A stretch of DNA of 64,000 bases from Mytilinidion resinicola (taxonomy: Eukaryota; Ascomycota; Dothideomycetes; Mytilinidiales; Mytilinidiaceae), in contig NW_022985448.1 in assembly GCF_010093595.1 (NCBI RefSeq), forward strand, positions 3,077-67,076. The letters run 5' to 3'. Within the stretch, counting starts at the first letter, position 1. Each line of letters opens with the position of its first letter. Made by a program: the position numbers and the translations under genes. Below the pieces are notes generated by a model. The model had not been told where the DNA came from. It saw only the letters and a list, made by a program, of their open reading frames with translations, and did not search any database. Shown here in pieces: positions 34,595-51,337 of this stretch.

Positions 34595-36583
34595 TCATCG
34601 GCCCTTGTGAATGTGATCCAGATCAAGAGACACCTCCGGAGTTCTCGACTTGTACAACATAATCGCCTCCGGATTCGTCACATTCTCAAGGCCATGGGCC
34701 CTGATTAGGGGTTGGCCCTGGTCTTCTGGGAATTTGAAGTCGTATTGCAGCAACGCGTAGGCCAAAAGGATCTTGATCTCGTTGGATGCAAAGAAGCGTC
34801 CAGGGCACGCATGCTTTCCATGTCCAAATGGCAGATAATCGTCTCCGGTAGTCACGAATTGGTGCTTGCTCTCCTCTCCGGCGCGTTGCCGCATGTCGTA
34901 GAACCGACGACCGTTGAATACTTGCGGGTTCTCGTAGTATTCTTCGTCGTAGAGCCGGGTGTTGGGGACGGTCAACGCTGAGCCTTTGGGTATCACGGTA
35001 CCGTCGGAAAGAGTGATGGTCTCATTCGCGATTCGATTCACCGTCACTCGTGGATAGTTAGCACTCGGAGTTAGTGGGTTGAGGAATTCACATACTGAAT
35101 GATGCGGGGTGCATGCGGTTGCTCTCTTTCATATAGCTGTCCATCATCTTAAGTTGATTGAGAGTTGTCTTATCCCATGACTTCGCCGAGCCGAGCACCT
35201 CGATGAGTTCCTGTCTCAAAAGCTCCACTGAACCGGGGCTTCCGACGATGTTGTACATGCAATTCGTGAATGTGATTGAAGTAGTGTGGACTGCTCCAAG
35301 GGAGTAGTTTAATTGCCTAGCGTTCCTCTATGTTAGCCCTGGTGTCCATTATTTGATCTAACTATGGTCGATGACGATGAGAGATCATACCCATGAACGG
35401 CATCACACATGTCTCCAGTCTTCTCGGTGATAGCATCCATCCATGCGAATGCATCTGAGTACTTCTTAGGCTTCCGGCCAGCTTTGATATCCGCAGCACG
35501 CTCCTTTCTACGCGCAAGAATAGTGGGCTCTATAATGCGACGAGCAGTTTCTACATCTTCGCGCAGCTGCTTAGTCTGTGGCAAGAACCAATGGACAATC
35601 GGTCGTAGGATCGGGGGAATCGCTCTCATGACGTATCCTCCTTTGCCGAAATGCAGGGTGTACTCGACCGAAATGCGTAGCCAATCTTCATTCTTAGCAA
35701 GCTCTGGTGGCATGAAAGTGCGTGCGGACAGTCTTGCGATAAATCTAAGAGCTATGGCATTGAACTTGACAGGGGTCCAGTCTGCTACCTCATCAGTATT
35801 TCTCGTTCAATTGTGAGACACCTTACGGGAGATTTACCGTCTGCTGGAGGGAAAGACTCTTCGTAACATTTTTCAGCTTCCTCTGCTAGCACGTGTACTA
35901 CCGTTGCTGCAGAGCATGTTAGATATGACAAGTTTAACGCAGTGTCAAAGACATGACGTACCAAGAGACTGCGTCAGGCCCATTCTCACGGAGTCAATGA
36001 ATACATTGTTGTCGACAGCCGGCCTGGAACACATTAGGACGAGACGTATAAAAGCAGATACGTGAACCTACCTGAAACCTTCAAATCCAGGATAATTTGT
36101 AAAGAAGTCCTGTCGAGTTTGAGCAAGACAACAAGCTTTCGGAAAGAGGCACAAATTACCCTTTTTAGCCAGCTTTTGAAAGTCATGCGCTCGTCCGTCC
36201 GAACCTCCGAAGTCATATGAGGTGGAATAATGATGAGGGGTCCGTTCATCCCGAACACCTGGAAGGGGTGCTTCCTCTGTATTGACACAATGTCAGTCGC
36301 CAATTCAGAGATTCTCAGAGCATTCGCTAGACCATCTTACCGTTCGGACAGCGTTGTTCACGATCTCTTTGGCGGACGACATCCATCGTTTCTTCGCTTC
36401 AGTGTAGTCCTTCTCGCCGTCTTGCTTACCGATGAGGGGTATTCCAGAAATCGGTTTATCGTTCGAGTTACCAAAAAAGAAATAGAATGAACCCAGTAAC
36501 ACGACAGTAGTAACGGCGAGTACTCCGACACCCCCCAGGAGACTCAGAGGGCCTAGCGAAAGGCTGTTGCTTGAGGAAGCCAT
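34595..36583 (-). CDS. Cytochrome P450 monooxygenase (A)
   Basis: A membrane-anchored haem monooxygenase in many exons, about 500 residues. The N-terminus (MASSSNSLSLGPLSLLGG then LAVTTVVLLGSFYFFFG) is an ER signal anchor, followed by the proline-containing ISGIPLIG. The K-helix ExxR region (KESNRMHPAS) lies near 35100, and PERF-equivalent FNGRRFYDMR and the haem-binding FGHGKHACPGRFFA are near 34800-34920. The FGHGKHACPGRFFASNEIK form is typical of fungal P450s related to ent-kaurene oxidase and indole-diterpene enzymes. The stop is at 34595. The start at 36583 is preferred; an upstream in-frame Met adds three residues. Divergent from P450 B over 575 bp. The substrate is unknown, although that family prefers terpenoids. 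Confidence 0.92.
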
Positions 36584-37158
36584 TATGATCAAGCGTGTAG
36601 GTGTTTGGGACTTCTCGAACGCTCACGCTTTGTGGGAACTTATATCTGGACTGGGCGGGAAGCGACTGAACCGGATATATGCCTACTGCAGCCACCGGCT
36701 CATGCATATCTTGGTTGGTGTAAGCTCCCAGGGTTGTTGTCGGCTTAGGTAGCATCCTCTAAAAGCCGTGCGCTCTTTTTGCACTGTGCTCACTCGTACG
36801 AGCACTGTAGCCAATCACACGAGAGCGAACGTGTTAAGAATGGTCAGCCGTGCTTACCGTAGCGAAAATTTATGCAAATGCATAAAGGCAACATGGTTCC
36901 GGCCACGACTAGCGCATGGGGACCCCAGAAATGCCTTTCGGATGTTTCTGGGGCATGAGATGCGGGGAAACGCAACCGGCAACTGCCCCCCTCCGCCGGT
37001 ATAGCAGGGATTCCAGCCACCCGAGAGGATGCCGTCCGCGAGCACAACTCTGGACATGGCTGGAATCTTTCACGACATCGTCCGAAAGGGAATCAGTTCC
37101 CAGCTTCATTCCCTCTACGATCTTGGACCTGCAGCCACTGACATTCAGAGAGTTCGTC
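36584..37158. promoter_or_regulatory. Divergent promoter region, P450 A / P450 B
   Basis: 575 bp between two P450 starts. A perfect 10-bp palindrome CTCGTACGAG (36793-36802) lies inside a wider imperfect inverted repeat (GTGCT at 36786-36790, AGCAC at 36801-36805), next to a CCAAT box (about 36811). These are plausible shared regulatory elements. No gene is recognised between the two starts. Confidence 0.4.
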
Positions 37159-38859
37159 ATGGCTGTTCCCTCACTGAACGAAAGTGTGGAGACATATCCT
37201 CACCCAGGCTTGATGTTATTGGCCGCGGGAATTCTCGGCGTGAGTAATGACTGACTCTCAGAAGCATTATTCTACATACTCAGGTCTTAGTTCTGGCTCT
37301 ACTACGTTTCCACTGCAATATACTGTGTATACTTTCATCCTCTATCGCATATACCAGGGCCAACTTTCGCCAAATTCTCAAAAGTCCCGTTTGCGTCAAG
37401 TCTTGTCAGGGGCAGCTTTCACGATGACATTCGATCAATGCACGATAAATATGGAGAAATCATTCGCTTCACACCAAACCATATTTCCTTCACCAACCCT
37501 GAGGCATGGAAAGACATGTATAACTACAACAGCGCCGTTCCCCATTTCATGAAGGACAAGATGAACTATCTGACCCCTATCAATGGAGTTGAGAGCCTTC
37601 ATTCCACTCCAAATGACCTCGACCACCGCCGTCAAAGACGTTTCTTGTCTCATGCCTTTTCCGAGAAAGCTTTGCGCGAGCAAGAGCCGCTGGTGGTGTC
37701 CTACGTCGATCTTCTCGTGAAGCGACTAGGCGAGGAGGTCGATGGACCAAACCAGGGAAAAACGGATCTGGTGCGGTGGCTGAATTGGACAACCTTTGAT
37801 CTTGTGGGGGATCTGACCTTTGGTGAACCCTTCAATTGTCTAGCGAGCAGTGACTACCACCCTTGGATTGCAATGGTGTTTGACTCGATGCGTGCCGCCA
37901 TCTGGATGGTTGCGTCAAAGCAGTTTCCAGCTCTGGATTGGGCTCTAGAGAGGTTGATCCCCAAGGCCGTCATGCAAAAGATGCACGATCACCACAATCT
38001 GAGCGTGCAAAAGATGGATCGCCGTCTCGCGACCAAGACCGAGCGTCCAGATTTTGTAACATACCTAATCGAGAGATCTGGAGGCCTTGAAAACATCAAT
38101 CTTCCTGAAATGCACTCCAACTCCACTCTTATCATTCTAGGCGGCAGCGAAACGAGTGCCACGGCTCTTTCAGGGGCTATTTACCACCTTGTTCGGAATC
38201 CAGAGAAGTTCGAGAGACTGGTCAAGGAGGTTCGCACGAAGATCAAGACGAAGGAAGATTTCGCGCTGAATGACCTTGCGCATTTGCCCTACCTAAATGC
38301 GTGCTTGGAGGAGTCTATGAGGATCTACCCACCGGTGGCAGGATACCTACCCAGAACTGCTCCCAAGGAAGGCTGCATGGTTGCTGGATACTTCGTTCCT
38401 CCATTTGTATGATTGAATACACTCTCTTGTGTTTCCTATCACTGATCACTTCATCTCAGACCCAAGCCTCGATCACTCCATGGGCCATAACTCATTCCAA
38501 AGAAAATTTCAAAGATCCGGACAAGTATTTTCCTGAGCGCTGGCTCGATGAAGGTATTTATGGCGAATTTGCGTCGGATAAGCGTGCTGCATCCCAGCCT
38601 TTCTCCGTTGGTCCCAGGAACTGCATTGGGAAGAAGTGAGTGCTCGAGTTGGAAATCGATCTGGGATTTCGTACTGATTTTTTTGGGTAGTCTTGCCTGG
38701 GCTGAAATGCGCTTGATTTTGGCTAAGCTGCTCTGGAACTTTGATATTACCATTGATCCGGAAAGTGATAACTGGACCCAGCAGAAGACGTACATCCTGT
38801 GGCAGAAGCCTCCACTGGTCTTGAAGCTGCGGCATAGGAGCTATGGCAGTGAGAAATAA
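37159..38859 (+). CDS. Cytochrome P450 monooxygenase (B), TRI11/CYP65-like
   Basis: About 510 residues. The start at 37159 (MAVPSLNESVETYPHP) precedes the signal anchor. Intron 1 (37240-37290, GTGAGT...CTTAG) joins ILG to FWLYYVSTAIYCVYFHPLSHIPGP, the membrane end and proline hinge. Then come the C-helix DHRRQRRFLSHAFSEKALREQE, the I-helix GGSETSATAL (oxygen-activation Thr), the K-helix EESMR, PERW, and the haem motif FSVGPRNCIGKK completed across a short intron (near 38637-38693) by SLAWAEMRLI. It resembles isotrichodermin C-15 hydroxylase-type fungal P450s. It is a close paralog of P450 C 0.6 kb downstream, pointing to tandem duplication. Confidence 0.93.
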
Positions 38860-39446
38860 GAAGGGAAACGGCACTCAATCGTCTCGTGTTTCTGATACGC
38901 TCGAGTTGAAGGGGAGATGAATGTAAATAGGAATTGAGTAGTTTTTCGAGACCTGTTCTCTCCATCTCGATGAATTAATTACCACGAAGTTCAACGTTTG
39001 AAGATAGCAGTCCTTCAAAATACTCATAATAACCTAATCTGCACCACTACAGTCATTGAGTCAAAGTCACAAGAATTTTACAGAGTTTCTTTCGAAACTA
39101 AGACGGCTAAACCCATTAACGCATCATAATCATGAACTTGAGAAAAGGGTGTGCAGTGGGCACGCTAGATACACGATATTCTTAGCTTGAGATCATGGCA
39201 TAATCGTGCTGATGGGAGTGGTGGATAGCACGGCAAGATCCAGCACGCCGCGCGATTTTATGCACACCTCTCGGAATCATCTGATCCAGACATGCCTGGA
39301 CTCGGAAGCCCACGCCCTGACCCCTCAGTTCGGGAGGCTTGTATCCGCCCCGCAGCAAGCTCGATATTTCTTAAGGCTTGCAATAAAACCCGTGCTAAAG
39401 CCACCTTCAATTTTTTCTGTGCGTATCTCTATCCGTCTTTCTCAAA
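38860..39446. other. Intergenic region between tandem P450 genes
   Basis: 587 bp. It presumably holds the P450 B terminator and the P450 C promoter. An open frame at 39206-39568 runs into P450 C out of frame and is not supported as a gene. Confidence 0.35.
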
Positions 39447-41144
39447 ATGGGGTTCGTAGACGATTTCACGTCCTTCAAGCTTGCCAGCCCAGCGGGACTG
39501 GTCCTCATACCCACTCTCGGCATTTCCGCTGTAAGTTATTTCGCAATGCTTCATCAGCCTCAATATGAAAAAGTACCAATCCGTCGTCACTAGATCTTGA
39601 GCTACTACATCATCATCGGGCTGTACAACATCACGTTCCACCCCCTCGCCAAGTACCCAGGTCCAAAAAGCTACGGCTTCACGCGTCTGACATGGTCTCT
39701 GGACGTTATTTCCGGAAAATCATGCTTCCGCCTCGCCGCCCTCCACGACAAATACGGCGAAGTCGTCCGCATCGGCCCCAACGAGCTCTCCTACACCAAC
39801 TCGAAAGTCTGGAAAGAAGTCTTCGGCTCGCAGCCCGGCGGCAAGCCGCAAATGCAAAAGGATCCCCTCCACTACCAGAAACATGATAAGACGCCATCCT
39901 TGCACGTGTCTGGGGACGCGGACCACACGCGCATGCGACGCTTGATAGCCCATGCGTTTTCCGACAAGGCTTTGCGCGACCAGGAGTACATCATGCAGAA
40001 TTACTCGAGCTTGTTGATCAGCCGATTACGGGAGGTGAGTGCGGGCGGCACAACGGTGAATATCCGCCAATGGTATCACTGGGCCCTGTTCGACCTCTTC
40101 GGGGATCTCTGCTACTGCGAGCCGTTTGGGTGTCTCCGGGACGGGAAGAGTCATCCGTGGGTTGATATCATCGGGGAGTCGATCCAAGCTTTCGCGTATA
40201 TCGGACTCGCGAGACGGATTCCGGGGCTGCAGAAGCTGCTGTTCAAGATGATGCCGAAGAAGAAGATCGAGCAGGCGGCGTGGCACACGAAGTTCAGCAG
40301 CGATTTGGCCGATAAGCGAATGGCGATGCAGACGGACCGACCGGATTTCATGAGCTTCTTGCTCAAGTATAATGATGAGAAGGGATTGTCGATTCCGGAG
40401 ATTCGATCGAACTCGAATGTGTTGATTCCAGGTGGGAGTGAAACAACTGGGACGTTCTTGGCGGGGACGACGTGGCATTTATTGAAGAACCCCGATAAGA
40501 TGAAGAAGCTTGTTCAGGAGGTGCGCGGAGCTTTTGCTACTCAGGAGGAGATCACAGTTGTCAAGTTAAACCAACTGAAATATCTTACGGCTGTTATCGA
40601 AGAAGGCCTGCGGGTCTATCCTCCAGTGCCCTCGAACATGCCTCGATCGATTCCACCAGAAGGCGCAACAGTGTGTGGGAAATGGGTACCTGGCGGAGTG
40701 AGTTCATTGACTTCAATTTGCGACTCCCTTGCTTACAATGACAGACTTCCGTTGCCATAGCACCATGGCCAATGTTTACGAGCGCCGCAAACTTCTCCGA
40801 CCCGCTCTCCTTCATCCCTGAGCGATGGCTTGGAGATCCGCTCTTCGCGCACGATGACAGGGCCGCATTCCAGCCTTTCTCATCTGGTCCCAGGAACTGC
40901 ATCGGAAAGAAGTAAAGTCACCCCTCGTGTTCACGATTCCCAAAGCTAACATATCGGTAGTCTTGCTTACGCGGAAATGCGCATGGTATTGGCAAAGATG
41001 GTATGGAACTTCGATCTTGTATTGCAGCCGGAAAGCGAGAATTGGTTCCCACACGAAATGGTCGTCGTTTGGAACATTCCGCCTCTTCATATCAAGCTGA
41101 TTCCGGTGGTACGCGAGCCTGCAATTACCGTTACCGAGTCGTGA
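39447..41144 (+). CDS. Cytochrome P450 monooxygenase (C), paralog of P450 B
   Basis: About 510 residues. The start at 39447 (MGFVDDFTSFKLASP). Intron 1 (39532-39594, GTAAGT...ACTAG) joins GIS(A) to ILSYYIIIGLYNITFHPLAKYPGP. The large second exon carries DHTRMRRLIAHAFSDKALRDQE, the I-helix GGSETTGTF and the K-helix EEGLR. A third exon has PERW and FSSGPRNCIGKK, and the last exon SLAYAEMRMVLAKMVWNFDL and the stop at 41144. Exon structure and motifs parallel P450 B, although exon 2 here has more G/C at third positions. Adjacent paralogs in one cluster often oxidise successive positions of one scaffold (inference). Confidence 0.93.
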
Positions 41145-42162
41145 AGATTGTATTCTCTCGGAGAAAACTTTTGTTCAGACGGATGTATGCTCACAGCTAC
41201 TACGTTTGTTAGGGTAGCAAGGGCTTGAGGTTACAGAGTTTTGAGGAGGTACGATAGAGTATAAAGCAATAGAAAAACTATATCACTAGAAGATTGAATA
41301 CTCGAGCATTCGGTGTGACAGTCTATGAGGAGGTAAAAGCAACGGTAAAGAAAGGACTCCGGCTCAGCTCTTCCGCGACCCGGCAAAAATGCAAAAATGA
41401 ATCGAAGCATTTACGTGAACCGTGTGGCATCAGCGGCGATGTGACCACCTGAGTGGTGAGGGTCTGTCTAGCGCTTTCTGAGGCAAATACACGCGTGAAC
41501 AGGCTTTGGTCGAGTGCTAAGAGTCTAGGACTGCTTCAATTATGATGGGTCCTTGATGGAGTTGTGATGATGGAGACGAACGAAGAGAAGTGTCCAAGTG
41601 GACAATTGCTCAAGCGAGGACTGGTTTAGTCGGCATTTCACGTAATATAGCAACATGTGGTTCATAATAACTACCAAATAGAGTAACTGACGGATCTATT
41701 CTCTTCATAAGAGTCTTATAAGAAGATCTAGGGAAGTGACACTATACCTCATCACAATTTTGTTCACACTCTTCTGCCAGTGCGTGTAGCGCTTCGACAC
41801 ACCGACACCCTTGTAGTGATTCGGGGCGAGGGATACGATTTTCAACCGGGGTACTCCCTTATGCTGTTGTTTGGGACTGCATGCCCAGTTTAGACTTCCT
41901 CAACTGGTTTATCAACATGAGAAAGGGTCGAAGGACTGTATGAAGGCGTATGTACCAATACCGAGATGGCTTACCCTGTATCGTAGTATGCAGAGCTTCT
42001 TGCGCTTTTAGTTGGTCTCTTTCCACCCAATCTTCTCTCCCTTCGTCCGAGACTTTCTCTTGACTTAATTGCTCACTTGTGTATGAGCATGCCTCGCTTT
42101 GCATATTGAGTGCCCGACGTCAATCCCTATCCAGACATCATCTATTCAATCCGAAAGACTCG
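41145..42162. other. Intergenic region, boundary of the metabolic gene set
   Basis: About 1 kb without a recognisable gene, RNA or mobile element. Open frames are short. It separates the last P450 from the HET fusion gene and is a reasonable right-hand limit of the metabolic cluster. Confidence 0.4.
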
Positions 42163-45100
42163 CTAATGTAAGGCAAAGCTACCCTCTCTTACATTCTTAC
42201 CACTTAACTTCATAGCTTCACCATGCATAAGATCGTGAATATACGCCTCCCCGATAATTTTGTACGAACCATCAGTACTGGGACGCAGAATAAAGGGAAC
42301 CCGCCCCCCTACTAGAACACAAATAACATCCCCAGGAGCTGCACCTCCGGGAACAAGCCCCAGCCTGCCAGCGGCAGTACAGCAGAACCGCCTGTACTGC
42401 GCCCAGCGGATGACCGCCGGCTCGTGATAGTTTAATAGTCGGGACATTGCCGATACAGGATCTTTGAACTCGAGGAACCCATCGAGCGGGACATAAGTCC
42501 GCCACCCGTAGTCAGGGATGCGAAACCCCAATTGAGTGGCTGCAACGGTGAAGGCATAGAGCCACTTTCTTTCAAGTGGCCTCCCGCTGGCGTCCATACC
42601 GCAAGATAGGGTAGGCCACCACATCTGGAAGACTTCGAACGATAACGCGCCGGTACCCCGAGTGGTGATCATAAGGGTCTCCCTGAGCCAGTCATTGATG
42701 CGTGTGTAGGACGAGCCGACCGAAACTGGTTGCCCGCTCATGTTCGGATCGTAGTAAGGCACTATCGCGAAGTTCGCCACGGAGCCTACTTCCTTGATCT
42801 CGTCCACCTTCCGGCCATGGACGCGGAGTTCAGTGTTGTTGTCTTCAAGAGAGACACTAGGTTGGTTCCGCATGCTTGACACCCCTCGAATTGTCGATTC
42901 GAAGGCTGAGCTATCTGCGTGGAACACGTCTCGTTGCTTCAGCCGAACTGTTAGCCCTTGGGTCCATGAGGCTTCGCTAGCGGCGCTCAGTAAGTTGGGC
43001 ATGACTGGCAGAGGATCGGCTTTGTTTGACCTTTTCAAATCGGGGACCCAAGATGGTAAGGATAGCGTAGGCGGCATTAGCGGGTCAGGTGTGAGTGCAA
43101 GAACCTGCAGATCGCGTCGTTTGGTGATGCTCCAGAGAGCAAACAGTTTATAGACATCTTCAGTAGGACGCGAGTAGTCGGGTGTGACCTCCCAGTCGGT
43201 CGACTCGACGTCTTTTGCCAAGCCGACGAGTGCGAAGACCTTGTCCCTCGGATCAGTACATTCGAAACCCCTGGTCAATAGTACAAGGTCAAGTAACGTG
43301 TGCCCGCTTGTTTTGCTTTGATATTTCGACCTCATCAGATGCATAGTCAAGAGGTTCGTTCGTGCGGTGAGCGTGTCTGCCGGCGGCGGTCCCAGCTTAT
43401 AAGTTTCTTTCGCGTACTGATGCGGTATGATAGGCCAGAGAAAATCAACAACGCCTTTGAAGACGTTCCAAGAGAGTTCCGAGTTGCCGCACATTACGAC
43501 CGCGCTTCGAGCACTCGCCAGCTCTTGAGTGACCCATATGCGCCGAAACCAAGAATGGCGAAGCAGCTCTGCAATAGGCTCCGTCCGTATTTGCCCGGAA
43601 ATCAACAGCGTCGAAGACTCGGATACTTCGCGGTCATTGGTAGGCTGTTCGACGAACATGTTCTCGAAGAAACTGTGAAAGTCGTCATCCCAATCTCTCC
43701 AGTCTTCCACGTTAGACAGATACCCAAGCTCTCGAGCCTCGTCTACCCAGCGAGACACCTGTCTTGGATATTCGGCACAAATTGCACGGATCATCTTGAA
43801 CGCTCCGCGATTGGCATCCGTCTCTTTGCCCAGCCAGATCAAAACTCGTTGCGCAGTCGAGTAAACATCTCCTATCTGCAGTACTTGATGCGTTCGTTCT
43901 TTAATGTCGGCTTGATTGATACCTAGAGCATCGATCCAGAGTACTCGCTCACGATCCGGAAGTCTGAGGCCCTCCAGTGCCTCGAAAAGATTGATCCCAA
44001 TGTCGACCTCCGAGCCCCCGCAGATGATATCTCTCTGCTCGCGGCTGTCTCCCCAAACATATGACAACGCCTCGAACTGTGGACCATCTGTCAGACACAC
44101 ATGTCGCAGCTCACAAGAAATCTTCTCCTCGCCTTTCCCGGGTTCAATAATGAGCAAGCGGATTTCATGCTCGAGGAGAAGAGGTTCGTATCGGGGCTGT
44201 CTACGGGGCTTGCGGGCTTGCTGCCATTCGTGAATCTTCAGCCCGACGGTGTTTTCGAAAAGGAGATAGGCGAGGGATAAAACCATGCAGACTGGAACAC
44301 CGAGCATGATCAATTTGATTAAAAATTCGAGTGCGGTGGGCGGGTTTCCTTTGGAAGAGAGGTATCTGTTATGTCTCTCATCTTCTTTTCCTTCTCTTAT
44401 GTCTTTCTCCACTCGCTCGATTGCCCACTCGATCAAAGATGCCATTTCGGGGATCTTGAAGTGTTCTCCGATGAGCTTTCCCATCCCGGGATGTAGTATC
44501 ATGCTGTCTTTAGTCTCCCTTTCAACCCAGAGTCGCCAGCGCTCCGTACGGAGTCCTTGATCGGCACCGGAGGACGAACCGTCTTGATGGATAAGATCAA
44601 CGCCGTATATCTTGTCCAGGTCCGTAGATGGCGAAGGTCTAATAGCATTCTTCTTAAGAAGTAACTCGAGGTGACGGGATCCATGGAATGCTGCACAGAT
44701 CAGTCCCAAAAGGTTCTATTGAGGAGAACAACAAACCTTGCCAATGCGACCATGCCCTGAACACTAAGTAAAAAAGTGGAAATTTAGGTATTCTTATCTC
44801 GGTCAGCTAAATGCCAAGGAAAATTTGCTGTACTCGCTCACATCGGTACCAACGCAAAAGGCATCGCAAACGGCAGGCCAGCATAACTCCAAAACATGCG
44901 ATCCGAATGCCTCGACTGGCCCTGAAGCGCGTACCGCTCCAACGTCTCCCTCAACTTCTCTTCACTCATGAAGCGTGCCGGAAACAACACCTCGACACTC
45001 TTGACCTTCCCATTCACGATATCCACGCGTCGTTTCCTACTCAAGGGCGGGATACTCTTCAGACCCCATTCTTGATACGGGATCCGTTTCAGAAGCTGAT

Positions 45101-45293
45101 TATCTGTGGCTGTTGAATTCTTCTTCCAGCCACCGGATATGTTTTCCCAGTTCACCAATGTCTGCAGCGCCTGGCTTTCAACGCGCCTCACGAGGCCGTC
45201 AAAGACGGAGTGTTGACCGAGATTAGATTTGGAGATGCACTGGCAGTATATGAGGGAGTGACGGGTGGAGATGGGAAGGAGGAAAATGCGCAT
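42163..45293 (-). CDS. Fusion: mitochondrial K+/H+ exchange-related (Mit_KHE1) + HET domain
   Basis: Three exons: 45293-44842, 44792-44737 and 44690-42163 (introns 49 and 46 nt). Joined length is 3036 nt, giving 1011 residues. Residues 1 to about 267 are a full Mit_KHE1 protein: MRIFLLPISTRHSLIYCQ, RIPYQEWGLKSIPPLS, then FALVPIIPKFPLFYLVFRAW and SHWQAFHGSRHLELLLKK across the introns, and the usual tail IGEHFKIPEMASLIEWAIERVE. No stop follows. A hydrophobic segment (about 289-313, LIMLGVPVCMVLSLAYLLF) leads into a HET domain: SCELRHVCLTDGPQFEALSYVWGD (about 361-384) and VLWIDALGINQADIKERTHQV, followed by a complete HET C-terminal region to 42163. HET domains trigger cell death in vegetative incompatibility. 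Mit_KHE1 proteins act at the mitochondrial inner membrane. Alternative: two overlapping transcripts, with HET starting at an internal Met before the membrane segment. Confidence 0.8.
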
Positions 45294-48160: not shown

Positions 48161-49657
48161 ATGGCACCCGCCCTCCATACCATTCCGAATGAGATGCTCT
48201 TGGAAATCTCACAATGGCTGCCTCATTCAGATCTCTTCAGACGCACTCCAACATTCGCGTGTTCTTGCAAGCAGAGTTACACAAGCCTGCCATTATGGAC
48301 AGGCCCGGATGTAACCATACGTCTAGCCGCCACAATGCGGTTTGCCCATGCAAGCACGTGCCAGCTATGAAATGGACTATTCACTACGATGACCATCGTC
48401 TACTTGAGTATCTACTGCGTCACCAAACTAGTGGCAAGTTTGAGAACAAGCATTGGCCGGCTGTTGATTGGGTAATTGAATATGGCTATTGCGAATCCGA
48501 ATTCATCGTTGTGCTTCTACAGTATGCACAGCGCCTTGGCAAAGACCGTAATATCCTCAAAAACCAGATGACAAGCTTGCTGGAGAGTCATGTTGGGGGC
48601 CTTCATGCTTATAGAGTGGAAGCTCATAAGTCCACAAATCGAGCTCGATATCACTGGGTATATGTGGCGACCAAGGCCGATCTGCAAGTGGTGAGTCCCC
48701 ATGACATACTTCTAAGCATTATGCACATCATAAACAACCCTAACCTCTAACAGGTCAAATTGCTACTCCAGCTCGGAGCAGATCCCATAGGTTTGTCAAC
48801 CTTAGAAACGAAATGGTCACAGCACGCGATCCAGCCATCTTTCCCTGTTCCCCACGTATTCAGAGTTACGGTTCCGAACATTCTTAAGGAGTTCATAAAG
48901 TACGGGGCGGATTTCTCCTAGTCTTCAGGTGCGGGTACGGGTAACATACTATGGAACGCCGTAGAAAACCATCACTACCCTATCGTCAAAGCACTGCTCC
49001 AACCAGGGATGAATCCAAACGCCGGCAGGCCAACCAATATGTTCCATCCGCTGAATTGCGCACTCGCCTTTCCTCCGATCCGATATGCTATGAAATGGAC
49101 TAAGATCGAGCGCCGAATGATTGCAGAGCTGCTCATTGAGAAAGGCGCCGATTCCAACGTCCCTTTCCCTGACGGTGATTACCCAATTCATAAAGTCGTC
49201 GAAGACTTTCGGGAAGAATACAGGACCGATGTGCCCGACGCTGGCCACGATCAAGACTTCAAGAAGATGAGTCGCGAGCATTTCACCCTCCTTATGTCCC
49301 GCTGCTCAAACATCGACATCCAAAACAGCGAGGGAAATACGGCTCTCCACATAGTGCTACAACACCGATACTACTCGTGGAGCAATCTTGGTGGTCTGGG
49401 GTATGCGCAGATGCTGCTAGAAGCGGGTGCGGACCCATTCTTGCCAGACCACTCGGGCAAGACACCATACGAACACTCCCTTGACGTCTCCACCTCCTCA
49501 ACTTCCAGCGATTGGACCGCCTTAAAATTCCGTACCGACGACTTTTACACTCTCCTGCATTTCTTCACTTCATGCGCGCTCAAGTCCAACCGCGTGCAGC
49601 TAATCCCGGCAAAGCTCGTATACGAGCAAGCATACGCCGAACACTGCCTTAAGCTGC
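48161..49657 (+). pseudogene. F-box/ankyrin-repeat gene, broken copy 1
   Basis: It starts with an F-box-like MAPALHTIPNEMLLEISQWL at 48161, then ankyrin-like repeats (PAMKWTIHYDDHRLLEYLLRH, VKLLLQLGADPIGL, RRMIAELLIEKGADSNVPF, NTALHIVLQ, MLLEAGADPFLPDHSGKTPYEH). A 63-nt intron is at 48691-48753. Three lesions: the F-box frame (frame 2) and the ankyrin frame (frame 1) do not connect (apparent frameshift around 48300-48335). An in-frame TAG at 48919-48921 stands where copy 2 has TGG (Trp in DLTWSF). The homology stops after AEHCLKLL near 49657, losing about 95 C-terminal residues that copy 2 retains. Ankyrin/F-box proteins mediate protein contacts or ubiquitin targeting. Probably non-functional. 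Confidence 0.75.
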
Positions 49658-49669
49658 TATTGTCCGCGG

Positions 49670-51337
49670 ATGCCCTCGATGCGATGGGCAATACGCAAGA
49701 ACGACACAGCAGTAAGCAAGTACTTGCTACGGCACAATGCAAGCGGCAAGTTGGAGAATGGGACTTGGCCGGCTATCGACTGGATGAACGAATTCCCGGA
49801 CGATTGGGACACTGAATTCGTCATCCCTTTTCTACAGTATGCCCAGCAACTAGGAAAGAATAATAACGTCATCGGCAGTCGGATCATGAAACTGTTGGAG
49901 ACCTTTCTGGGTCGCTTTTCAGTTCGTATCGACGGTTTGCTCGATAACAGTACTCGCCGCGATCAACCCATATGGGCCGCGGATGAGAAAGTGGGAAGAC
50001 TTGAGCTTGAAGCGGTAAGTTGCTGTACACCCCGTACGCATCAAGCCTTCGCAGAGTCGACTAATGACTAGTAGGTAGAATTGATACCTCGGCTTGGAGC
50101 TGACCCCATGGGCCTATCAGCTTCAAGTGTATATTGGCCACGACGTAATATAACGTTTCCGTCACCTGTGCCTCATACATTCAGAGCTCAGTCGCCAAAA
50201 ATTCTGAAGCTATTCATTGAACATGGGGTAGACCTTACCTGGTCCTTTGCCGCGGGCAACATCCTACATCAAGCCGTAGAAAACGACAACGTACCCATGA
50301 ACAAGATCCTACTTGAGGCAGGAGTGGATGTAGATATCAGTGGAACTAGCGATGGCTTCACTCCGCTCAATCGGGCACTTGTTCTCACGCATCTCCCACA
50401 TATGTATCAGGGACCTAACAAACTGGAGCGCCGAATGATCGCTACCCTTCTCATTCAGCATGGAGCAGATGTCAACATACCCTCTCCGGACGGCGATTAC
50501 CCGATACACAGCGTCGTCAAGCATTTCCACGACCGCTCTTTTCAGTATCTAGGAAGCAGTTCTGTAAGTAGAGTTGTTGAGTTCTTCTACCACTACGGCG
50601 ATTCCGACAAGATGGGCCGAAAGTATTTCAGGATGCTCATGTCTCGGTGCTCGAATATCAACGTCCAGAACCGGGAGGGAAAGACGGCCCTTCACGTCGC
50701 TCTACAACGCAAAGCGCCCTTCCCTTACAGACCAAACGATTTAGGGTACGCTGAGATGCTTCTAGTTAAGGGAGCGGATCCCTTTCTACCAGACTCATTT
50801 GGAAAGACACCATACCAATACGCTCTTAATGCCTCCAACTGGGGGGCGGATGAATCTGTCGGCATGCTCGCCCTCAACTGCCCTTTCAACCAGCTTTACG
50901 ATCAGATCCACTTCCTTACGGCCATGGCGCTCAAAATTGACCGCGTTCAGCCGATCCCAGCTAGACTCGTCTACGAGCAAGCTTTCGCGGAGCACTGCTT
51001 GAAACCACTGCCACGCAAAATCTTTCCGCCGTTCCCTGCATATGCAGGCCAGCCGCCACCACGCGAACTACACATCGACCCGCGAATTGTCAAGGTCTTT
51101 CTAGACGTAATGCACGCGCTAGAGCAGTTCCCTCCAAAGGTAGGACCCATTGGCTTGAAAAAGCTAGACAGGTCGTTCTGGAACCAGTATTCGGAAGGGA
51201 TTATAAACCCTACTTTCAAGGCAGACGTCCACATGTTGGAGTGGCGAGAGGAATGCCAGGGCTGGCCGGATTGGACGCCGGAGGAGTGGCAGAAGTGGCG
51301 GGATAGCCGGTGCTGGATGAAGGAGGCAGAAGGTTGA
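49670..51337 (+). CDS. Ankyrin-repeat protein, copy 2 (F-box part lost)
   Basis: Two exons (intron 50015-50074, GTAAGT...TAG) encode 535 residues if translation starts at 49670 (MPSMRWAIRKNDTAVS). Ankyrin units include ILKLFIEHGVDLTWSF, AGNILHQAVENDN, NKILLEAGVDVDISG, GFTPLNRALV, RRMIATLLIQHGADVNIPS, KTALHVALQ and MLLVKGADPFLPDSFGKTPYQYAL, with a C-terminal Trp-rich end. The first residues align to the linker after the F-box in copy 1 (CPRMPSMRW versus CKHVPAMKW), so the F-box exon is missing here. The repeats are intact and free of stops. It may still be expressed from a new promoter, or be a 5'-truncated pseudogene. Confidence 0.7.

Follow-up and report, generated by a model that had tools for sequence, protein, structure and literature searches.

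Proteins of the Mit_KHE1 family (PF10173) are located in the mitochondrial inner membrane, and the yeast member of the family is presumably Ydl183c. Together with Mdm38 and Mrs7, Ydl183c has been placed in mitochondrial potassium homeostasis (PMC3744574, PMC9105532). HET domains, for their part, are remote relatives of TIR (PMC12881547, PMC10197012, PMC10890737, PMC4986451), and human SARM1 provides an example of a TIR death enzyme that carries a mitochondrial targeting sequence (PMC11749472). Few HET genes act in allorecognition, and the action of HET itself is described as undemonstrated or unknown (PMC10197012, PMC10890737). HET domains joined to another part have been described in Podospora, namely in the HNWD NOD-like receptors (NLRs) HET-E, HET-D and HET-R and in BH, in which the partner is a lectin fold; HET is N-terminal and its partner C-terminal in all of these, and the passages concerned name no mitochondrial part. 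In contrast, the gene that we describe here, from Mytilinidion resinicola, places HET behind a whole Mit_KHE1 domain in a single frame. It lies in a stretch of 64,000 nt, hereafter the window (GCF_010093595.1, contig NW_022985448.1, positions 3,077 to 67,076 of the forward strand), and all coordinates given below are positions in that window.

To our knowledge, this is the first known joining of a mitochondrial protein to a fungal death domain, and a sequence deposited from Monosporascus is the second. An earlier note on this DNA was aware of no described protein with this order. A hypothetical protein with this order has in fact been deposited for Monosporascus, but no paper describing it turned up, and neither a Mit_KHE1-HET protein nor a mitochondrial HET protein was found in the literature, as far as titles, abstract openings and some passages go, with subscription journals mostly outside this coverage. 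Two further reports touch on neighbouring subjects: one describes a virus that reduces the expression of most host HET genes (PMC5363999), and the other reports a gain of HET genes in Trichoderma and uses TargetP, the two being unconnected in its passages (PMC6560777). We regard the fusion as a new architecture of a HET protein, in an apparently new cellular place. On balance, we lean toward reading its product as a death protein of the HET (TIR-like) type that is held in a mitochondrial membrane, the inner one being the likeliest, and in which a Mit_KHE1 duplicate would have taken the place of a presequence.

One continuous frame for Mit_KHE1 and HET

The gene runs on the minus strand, which the earlier note had left unstated, from 45293 to 42163 and has three exons. 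Exon 1 (44842..45293) provides the start codon together with most of the Mit_KHE1 domain, exon 2 (44737..44792) holds the IPKFPLFYLVFRAWSHWQ segment of that domain, and exon 3 (42163..44690), which is free of stops inside, holds the end of Mit_KHE1, a linker, a hydrophobic segment, HET, a C-terminal part and the stop codon. Intron 1 (44793..44841; 49 nt, GTGAGC...GATAAG) and intron 2 (44691..44736; 46 nt, GTTTGT...GTGCAG), likewise on the minus strand, stand at the same positions as introns 1 and 2 of an unfused Mit_KHE1 gene on contig C1 of the same genome. Many alternative splice pairs would also keep the long frame, and we favour this exon set because it restores the Mit_KHE1 motif and because its introns are placed as in the unfused copy. 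The resulting coding sequence has 3036 nt, which is divisible by three, and encodes 1011 residues with the sole stop at its end. Thus, the three-exon in-frame fusion proposed in the earlier note, with introns that restore a family motif, is borne out at the level of the DNA.

A single frame of 850 codons (44715-42163) takes in the last part of Mit_KHE1, the hydrophobic segment and all of the HET part, and everything from residue 171 to the stop belongs to a single exon. A chance open frame was considered and rejected, as no open run exceeded 262 codons in 500 sequences of equal length drawn from a first-order Markov model. The proportion of G and C at third positions is similar in the three parts of the gene (0.60, 0.56 and 0.58), and the window contains no N.

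Both domains match their Pfam models over the full length, so that Mit_KHE1 and HET are each complete, as had been claimed. The Mit_KHE1 match (minus strand, 44656..45290 with the introns within the span, residues 2-181) reaches 172.3 bits, the curated cut-off being 22.5, with an E-value of 1.7e-50 over model positions 1-188 of 188; the HET domain (PF06985; minus strand, 43522..44076, residues 375-559) reaches 96.6 bits, also with a curated cut-off of 22.5, and an E-value of 2.2e-27 over positions 1-146 of 146. Besides these two, Pfam found nothing in the protein at E<=1, and the NACHT or NB-ARC core of a fungal NLR is accordingly absent at that threshold. An alignment of 118 family members has 62 columns with a conservation of at least 90%; the Mit_KHE1 half (residues 1-270) retains 51 of them, compared with 60 in the C1 copy, 53 in a protein of Lophium mytilinum and 46 (6 gapped) in that of Monosporascus. 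The predicted fold of this half is confident (predicted local distance difference test, 83), and Foldseek returned no solved relative of the model at E<=0.001. Exon 3, in turn, agrees with 43 relatives in 51 of the 55 columns where their conservation is 90% or more; it departs at residues 426 (ALCINQ, with C replaced by G), 442 and 445, and also at 171, an artefact of the alignment starting there.

The two domains are separated by a hydrophobic segment that is likely to be a membrane helix (minus strand, 44257..44343, residues 286-314), with a peak 19-residue Kyte-Doolittle mean of 2.46 at residue 296 (2.00 in Monosporascus), 60 residues ahead of the HET motif. The earlier note had singled out 44200-44450 as the place where an intron or a stop could part the halves. 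There is no stop in it, and none of its 8 GT dinucleotides is among 13 strong donor hexamers, a list that omits GTTTGT, the donor of the gene's own intron 2; one of them (GTGGGC, 44428) fits GTRNGH, and the nearest strong donor is GTGAGC at 44114, inside the start of HET. Nevertheless, 44 weak GT...YAG pairs of 40-250 nt begin within this junction, and splicing across it is conceivable from the letters alone.

It could therefore be argued that the gene gives two transcripts or that the junction is spliced out, with Mit_KHE1 ending early through splicing or polyadenylation and HET restarting, for instance, at Met299 in the hydrophobic segment. Besides the weak splice pairs, the public models fit such an arrangement to some extent. 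BDZ99DRAFT_418956, deposited for M. resinicola, is a partial model of 273 residues that is identical to the fusion protein and covers only its Mit_KHE1 half; the deposited Lophium model exits the HET frame right after Mit_KHE1, its tail matching only from behind the helix; and the Monosporascus model ends in an FAD-binding part, so that its predictor may over-join. However, BDZ99DRAFT_418956 lacks a stop codon of its own and ends where the genomic frame continues, Monosporascus retains the order with a short linker, and a HET protein starting at Met299 would have its first residue within the helix and would lack the N-terminal address that its relatives carry. Given also the stop-free junction with no strong donor, we consider this arrangement unlikely. 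Separate genes are likewise not favoured, in view of the one continuous frame and the recurring order, and they are kept as a rival in the form just described.

Recurrence of the order and origin of the Mit_KHE1 half

A search with residues 1-330, which took only proteins of about 556-1769 residues (2961 candidates), gave a sole match, the hypothetical protein DL770_004631 of Monosporascus sp. CRB-9-2 (1423 residues). Its order is the same (Mit_KHE1, helix, HET, C-terminal part), which the earlier note, with regard to relatives, had named as support for a fusion, and it is 58% identical to the fusion protein over 999 columns. By part, the identity is 52% in the Mit_KHE1 domain (146 of 181 residues aligned, the Monosporascus model being without about 31 residues there), 15% in the linker, which is short in both (13 of 15 aligned), 42% in the helix and stalk (residues 286-345), 62% in the 29 residues preceding HET, 65% in HET and 70% in the remainder, that is, the C-terminal part after HET (minus strand, 42166..43521, residues 560-1011). 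The C-terminal part of Mit_KHE1 (minus strand, 44389..44655, residues 182-270) aligns to both the C1 copy and Monosporascus (38% identity). Unlike the fusion protein, DL770_004631 (P0001 in our list of HET matches) has a tail at residues ~953-1423 that corresponds to FAD_binding_4. Here the gene predictor has probably appended a neighbouring gene, which calls for caution over the entire Monosporascus model.

Lophium mytilinum, which belongs to the same family as Mytilinidion, has a deposited protein of 316 residues whose Mit_KHE1 half is 78% identical to that of the fusion. The tail of this model matches 44097..44222 of the minus strand (57% identity, E 5e-10 with 3.1 kb of the window as subject) in a frame other than that of HET, which here encodes residues 327-368. 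DNA corresponding to the start of HET thus lies behind Mit_KHE1 in Lophium too. Third positions of the HET frame account for 9 of the 13 single-base differences in this stretch, where 42% would be expected (binomial p 0.046), and for 13 of 21 if every minimal change is included (p 0.055). This weakly suggests that the HET frame was under constraint in the past. An assembly error is not favoured, since the order is also that of Monosporascus and DNA of the HET start is read behind Mit_KHE1 in the Lophium model.

The same observations bear on the idea that the fusion is a neutral accident or a decaying relic, a run-on gene without function. Its distribution is patchy, since the protein search gave one further full case and the Lophium model departs from the HET frame, and the Cys to Gly change at 426 alters a near-invariant HET residue. 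Yet the frame is open, a Dothideomycete and a Sordariomycete share 65-70% identity in the HET half, and the third-position excess in Lophium points, weakly, to constraint. A relic is therefore quite improbable in our view.

With regard to the source of the Mit_KHE1 half, the genome also contains the second, unfused gene that the earlier note had suggested looking for. A six-frame search gave four Mit_KHE1 matches, two exon matches each for the fusion gene and for the gene on contig C1. The latter encodes, by the splicing done here, a canonical Mit_KHE1 protein of 324 residues that shares the domain with the fusion protein (41% identity over 278 columns) and has no HET half. A tree of Mit_KHE1 proteins was made from 42 rows, namely 39 of the 120 listed matches, chosen for spread, plus the fusion, the C1 copy and Monosporascus. 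The fusion, Lophium and Monosporascus form one group (99/97, starred) on the Dothideomycete side of the main split (100/99, starred), and the Monosporascus row, a flagged long branch, remains on that side when the fusion and Lophium rows are removed. An origin of the Monosporascus Mit_KHE1 half within its own order, with the row held together with 12 Xylariales, was rejected by the approximately unbiased (AU) test, both with all rows (p 0.00011) and without the fusion and Lophium rows (p 0.0029). The AU tests are compatible with an old duplication at the base of the Dothideomycete copies (p 0.249, 0.483 and 0.376).

These comparisons support an origin of the Mit_KHE1 half as a duplicate. The fusion probably arose once, which fits the fused pair being sisters in the HET tree discussed below and grouping with Lophium in the Mit_KHE1 tree. 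Gene transfer into Monosporascus is plausible as a lead only, because the basal duplication survives the AU tests and the Monosporascus branch is long.

The joining of a duplicated cellular protein to a TIR-like death domain, while the original gene stays in place, would also fit an integrated bait, that is, a guard or decoy. In such a design the Mit_KHE1 half would mimic a mitochondrial target of invaders (for example, mitoviruses, selfish mitochondrial plasmids or competitors' compounds), and disturbing it would set free the death activity of HET. Decoy domains have been suggested for fungal NLRs (PMC5658179). Moreover, the fusion and Monosporascus are less alike in the Mit_KHE1 half (45% of 234 columns identical) than in the HET half (69% of 565). 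Faster change in the sensor half would be equally expected under relaxed constraint, however, and the protein has neither an NLR core nor a known interaction partner. We regard a bait as possible but doubtful.

HET relatives with presequence-like starts

The anchoring of the fusion in a mitochondrial membrane, the reading toward which we lean, draws on two things, the kinship of the HET half with proteins that have presequence-like starts and the compartment of the Mit_KHE1 family. A search with the HET half (residues 285-1011) gave 789 matches from 7993 scored candidates, of which the best 120 were listed and ranked. Monosporascus comes first with 66% identity and the next ones have 31-33%; PF10173 is precomputed on none of the 119 matches listed below Monosporascus. 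PF26639, on the other hand, is precomputed on most of the listed HET relatives, an annotation taken from their records. The unfused proteins that carry it, some of them named het-6-like, resemble the fusion in both HET and the C-terminal part.

We called a start presequence-like when it had a net charge of at least +5 in 40 residues, at most 1 acid in 30 and at least 2 Arg. By this rule, 22 of the 32 Met-starting relatives at ranks 2-35 have presequence-like starts, as opposed to 1 of 83 at ranks 36-120, where the unfused HET proteins, unlike the nearest kin, fail it in 82 of 83 cases. All 22 have more than 100 residues ahead of the HET motif, and among proteins with such long extensions the rule is passed by 22 of 25 in the first set and by 1 of 18 in the second. 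Dropping the Arg condition and trying nine pairs of charge and acid limits gave 17-22 of 32 versus 1 of 83, and net charge declines with rank over 115 Met-starting proteins (Spearman -0.49). As a rough positive control, 67 of 119 Mit_KHE1 family proteins pass the rule. The 22 proteins come from Trichoderma, Ilyonectria, Patellaria, Massarina and other genera, and they are the nearest HET kin of the fusion. They form a grouping made in this analysis, since they are deposited as HET or hypothetical proteins, and may represent a mitochondrial HET group, notable apart from the fusion. The set, for reference, comprises P0003-P0016, P0019, P0020, P0022-P0024, P0026, P0030 and P0031, from several genera.

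Most of these relatives share the hydrophobic segment with the fusion, and they differ from it in having a presequence-like start where it has a whole Mit_KHE1 and, in most, a weaker segment. A segment with a 19-residue mean of at least 1.0 precedes HET in 19 of the 22, compared with 2 of 18 distant relatives with long extensions, and in the unfused group it mostly stands 47-90 residues ahead of the HET motif. A membrane anchor is thus likely for this group, weak as it is in their sequences, and it is clear in the fusion and in Monosporascus.

A HET tree from which N-termini had been removed (66 rows: ranks 2-65, from which two lacking the motif were dropped, plus the fused pair and two HETs of the own genome, those of five that gave a frame) gives a similar picture. 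The fusion and Monosporascus are sisters (100, starred) inside a 31-row clade with a Shimodaira-Hasegawa-like approximate likelihood ratio test (SH-aLRT) value of 91, which comprises 22 presequence-like rows, 5 that are not, the 2 fused ones and 2 unlabelled. The presequence label changes 7 times on this tree, versus a mean of 18.6 when shuffled, and a value as low was reached in 0 of 500 shuffles. Four of the five rows without the label (P0002, P0017, P0021 and P0027) are shorter models beside presequence-like kin and may lack a first exon, and the fifth, P0034, has the hydrophobic segment only. As for the genome of M. resinicola itself (47.1 Mb), at least 151 HET domain matches were seen in it, several with internal stops. 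The best HET relative of the fusion among them has 32% identity, and of the two placed in the tree, neither open frame has a presequence-like start.

As we infer it, the sequence of events could have been as follows. In unfused members of the clade of the HET half, an N-terminal presequence, as a rule with a hydrophobic segment behind it, would direct the protein to mitochondria, and in an ancestor of the fusion a Mit_KHE1 duplicate would have been joined ahead of that segment, displacing the presequence, so that the Mit_KHE1 half would now supply both address and anchor. The product of one transcript would be imported and take up its topology in the membrane; upon some trigger, its HET domains would cluster and act on nicotinamide adenine dinucleotide or a related substrate in the organelle, or signal from it, and this action would lead to cell death. 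The mitochondrial address for a death domain that the earlier note had proposed gains independent backing from the presequence-like N-termini of the nearest unfused HET relatives. Its further proposals, a death domain placed under mitochondrial ion status in a 'guarded organelle' design, and execution of death by this protein, gain no such backing.

Several points weigh against this. The chemistry of HET is not established, and the N-terminus of the fusion itself fails the presequence rule (net charge +3 in 40 residues), as do 52 of the 119 Mit_KHE1 proteins. The rule is a charge rule of our own and not a trained predictor, and the boundary at rank 35 was set after the list had been seen. Most presequence-like rows are Trichoderma or close kin, so that the label stands for few independent lineages. 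At a stricter segment mean of at least 1.6, only 3 of the 22 qualify, versus 2 of 18 controls, and P0007 has no such segment. The fused pair and the presequence-like rows are united by a clade with an SH-aLRT of 91, unstarred, in a quick tree with many long branches. Finally, the public model of the fusion gene is partial, its 273 residues ending in the Mit_KHE1 part, and no HET-half protein of M. resinicola is among the 120 matches listed (candidates of about 556-1769 residues).

Some of these points could also be read as placing the HET half on the cytosolic face of mitochondria or altogether outside them, Mit_KHE1 then serving as a plain membrane anchor. Such a location would agree with the failure of the fusion and of many Mit_KHE1 proteins to pass the presequence rule, and with the charges flanking the helix, whose balance is mixed across 12 proteins and gives no consistent orientation. 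Against it stand the presequence-like starts of the HET relatives, the name of PF10173, which refers to mitochondrial K+-H+ exchange, and the placement of Ydl183c in the mitochondrial exchanger system (PMC3744574, PMC9105532). On these grounds we think a location off the mitochondrial interior rather unlikely.

If the anchoring in mitochondria is correct, a mitochondrial HET would be a fungal parallel to SARM1, and a HET clade with a likely mitochondrial address would indicate where to look for killing by HET, with the fusion carrying its own anchor as a tool. One might go further and propose, as a speculation that we hold to be doubtful as a whole, a mitochondrion-resident HET/TIR-like branch in which a fused, duplicated ion-exchange subunit serves as bait and anchor of an immune sensor at the level of the organelle, perhaps against mitoviruses or selfish mitochondrial DNA, and which was moved between fungal classes by gene transfer.

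Genes around the fusion

Upstream, the fusion gene adjoins a PRISE-like reductase gene on the minus strand (46837-45467) with at least two frames. Repeats around the fusion gene are short pairs only, and the contig start, examined for a telomere, reads N in its first bases. Downstream of the fusion gene, two cytochrome P450 frames lie on the plus strand (37291-38412 and 39594-40760). The interval 36000-42163 holds 11 other open reading frames of at least 110 residues; two of these were scanned with Pfam in view of synteny with Monosporascus and its FAD_binding_4 part, and both were P450, so that a FAD_binding_4 frame may still lie in the interval. Finally, two ankyrin-repeat frames are found near the fusion gene on the plus strand, at 48922-49815 and 50075-51337.

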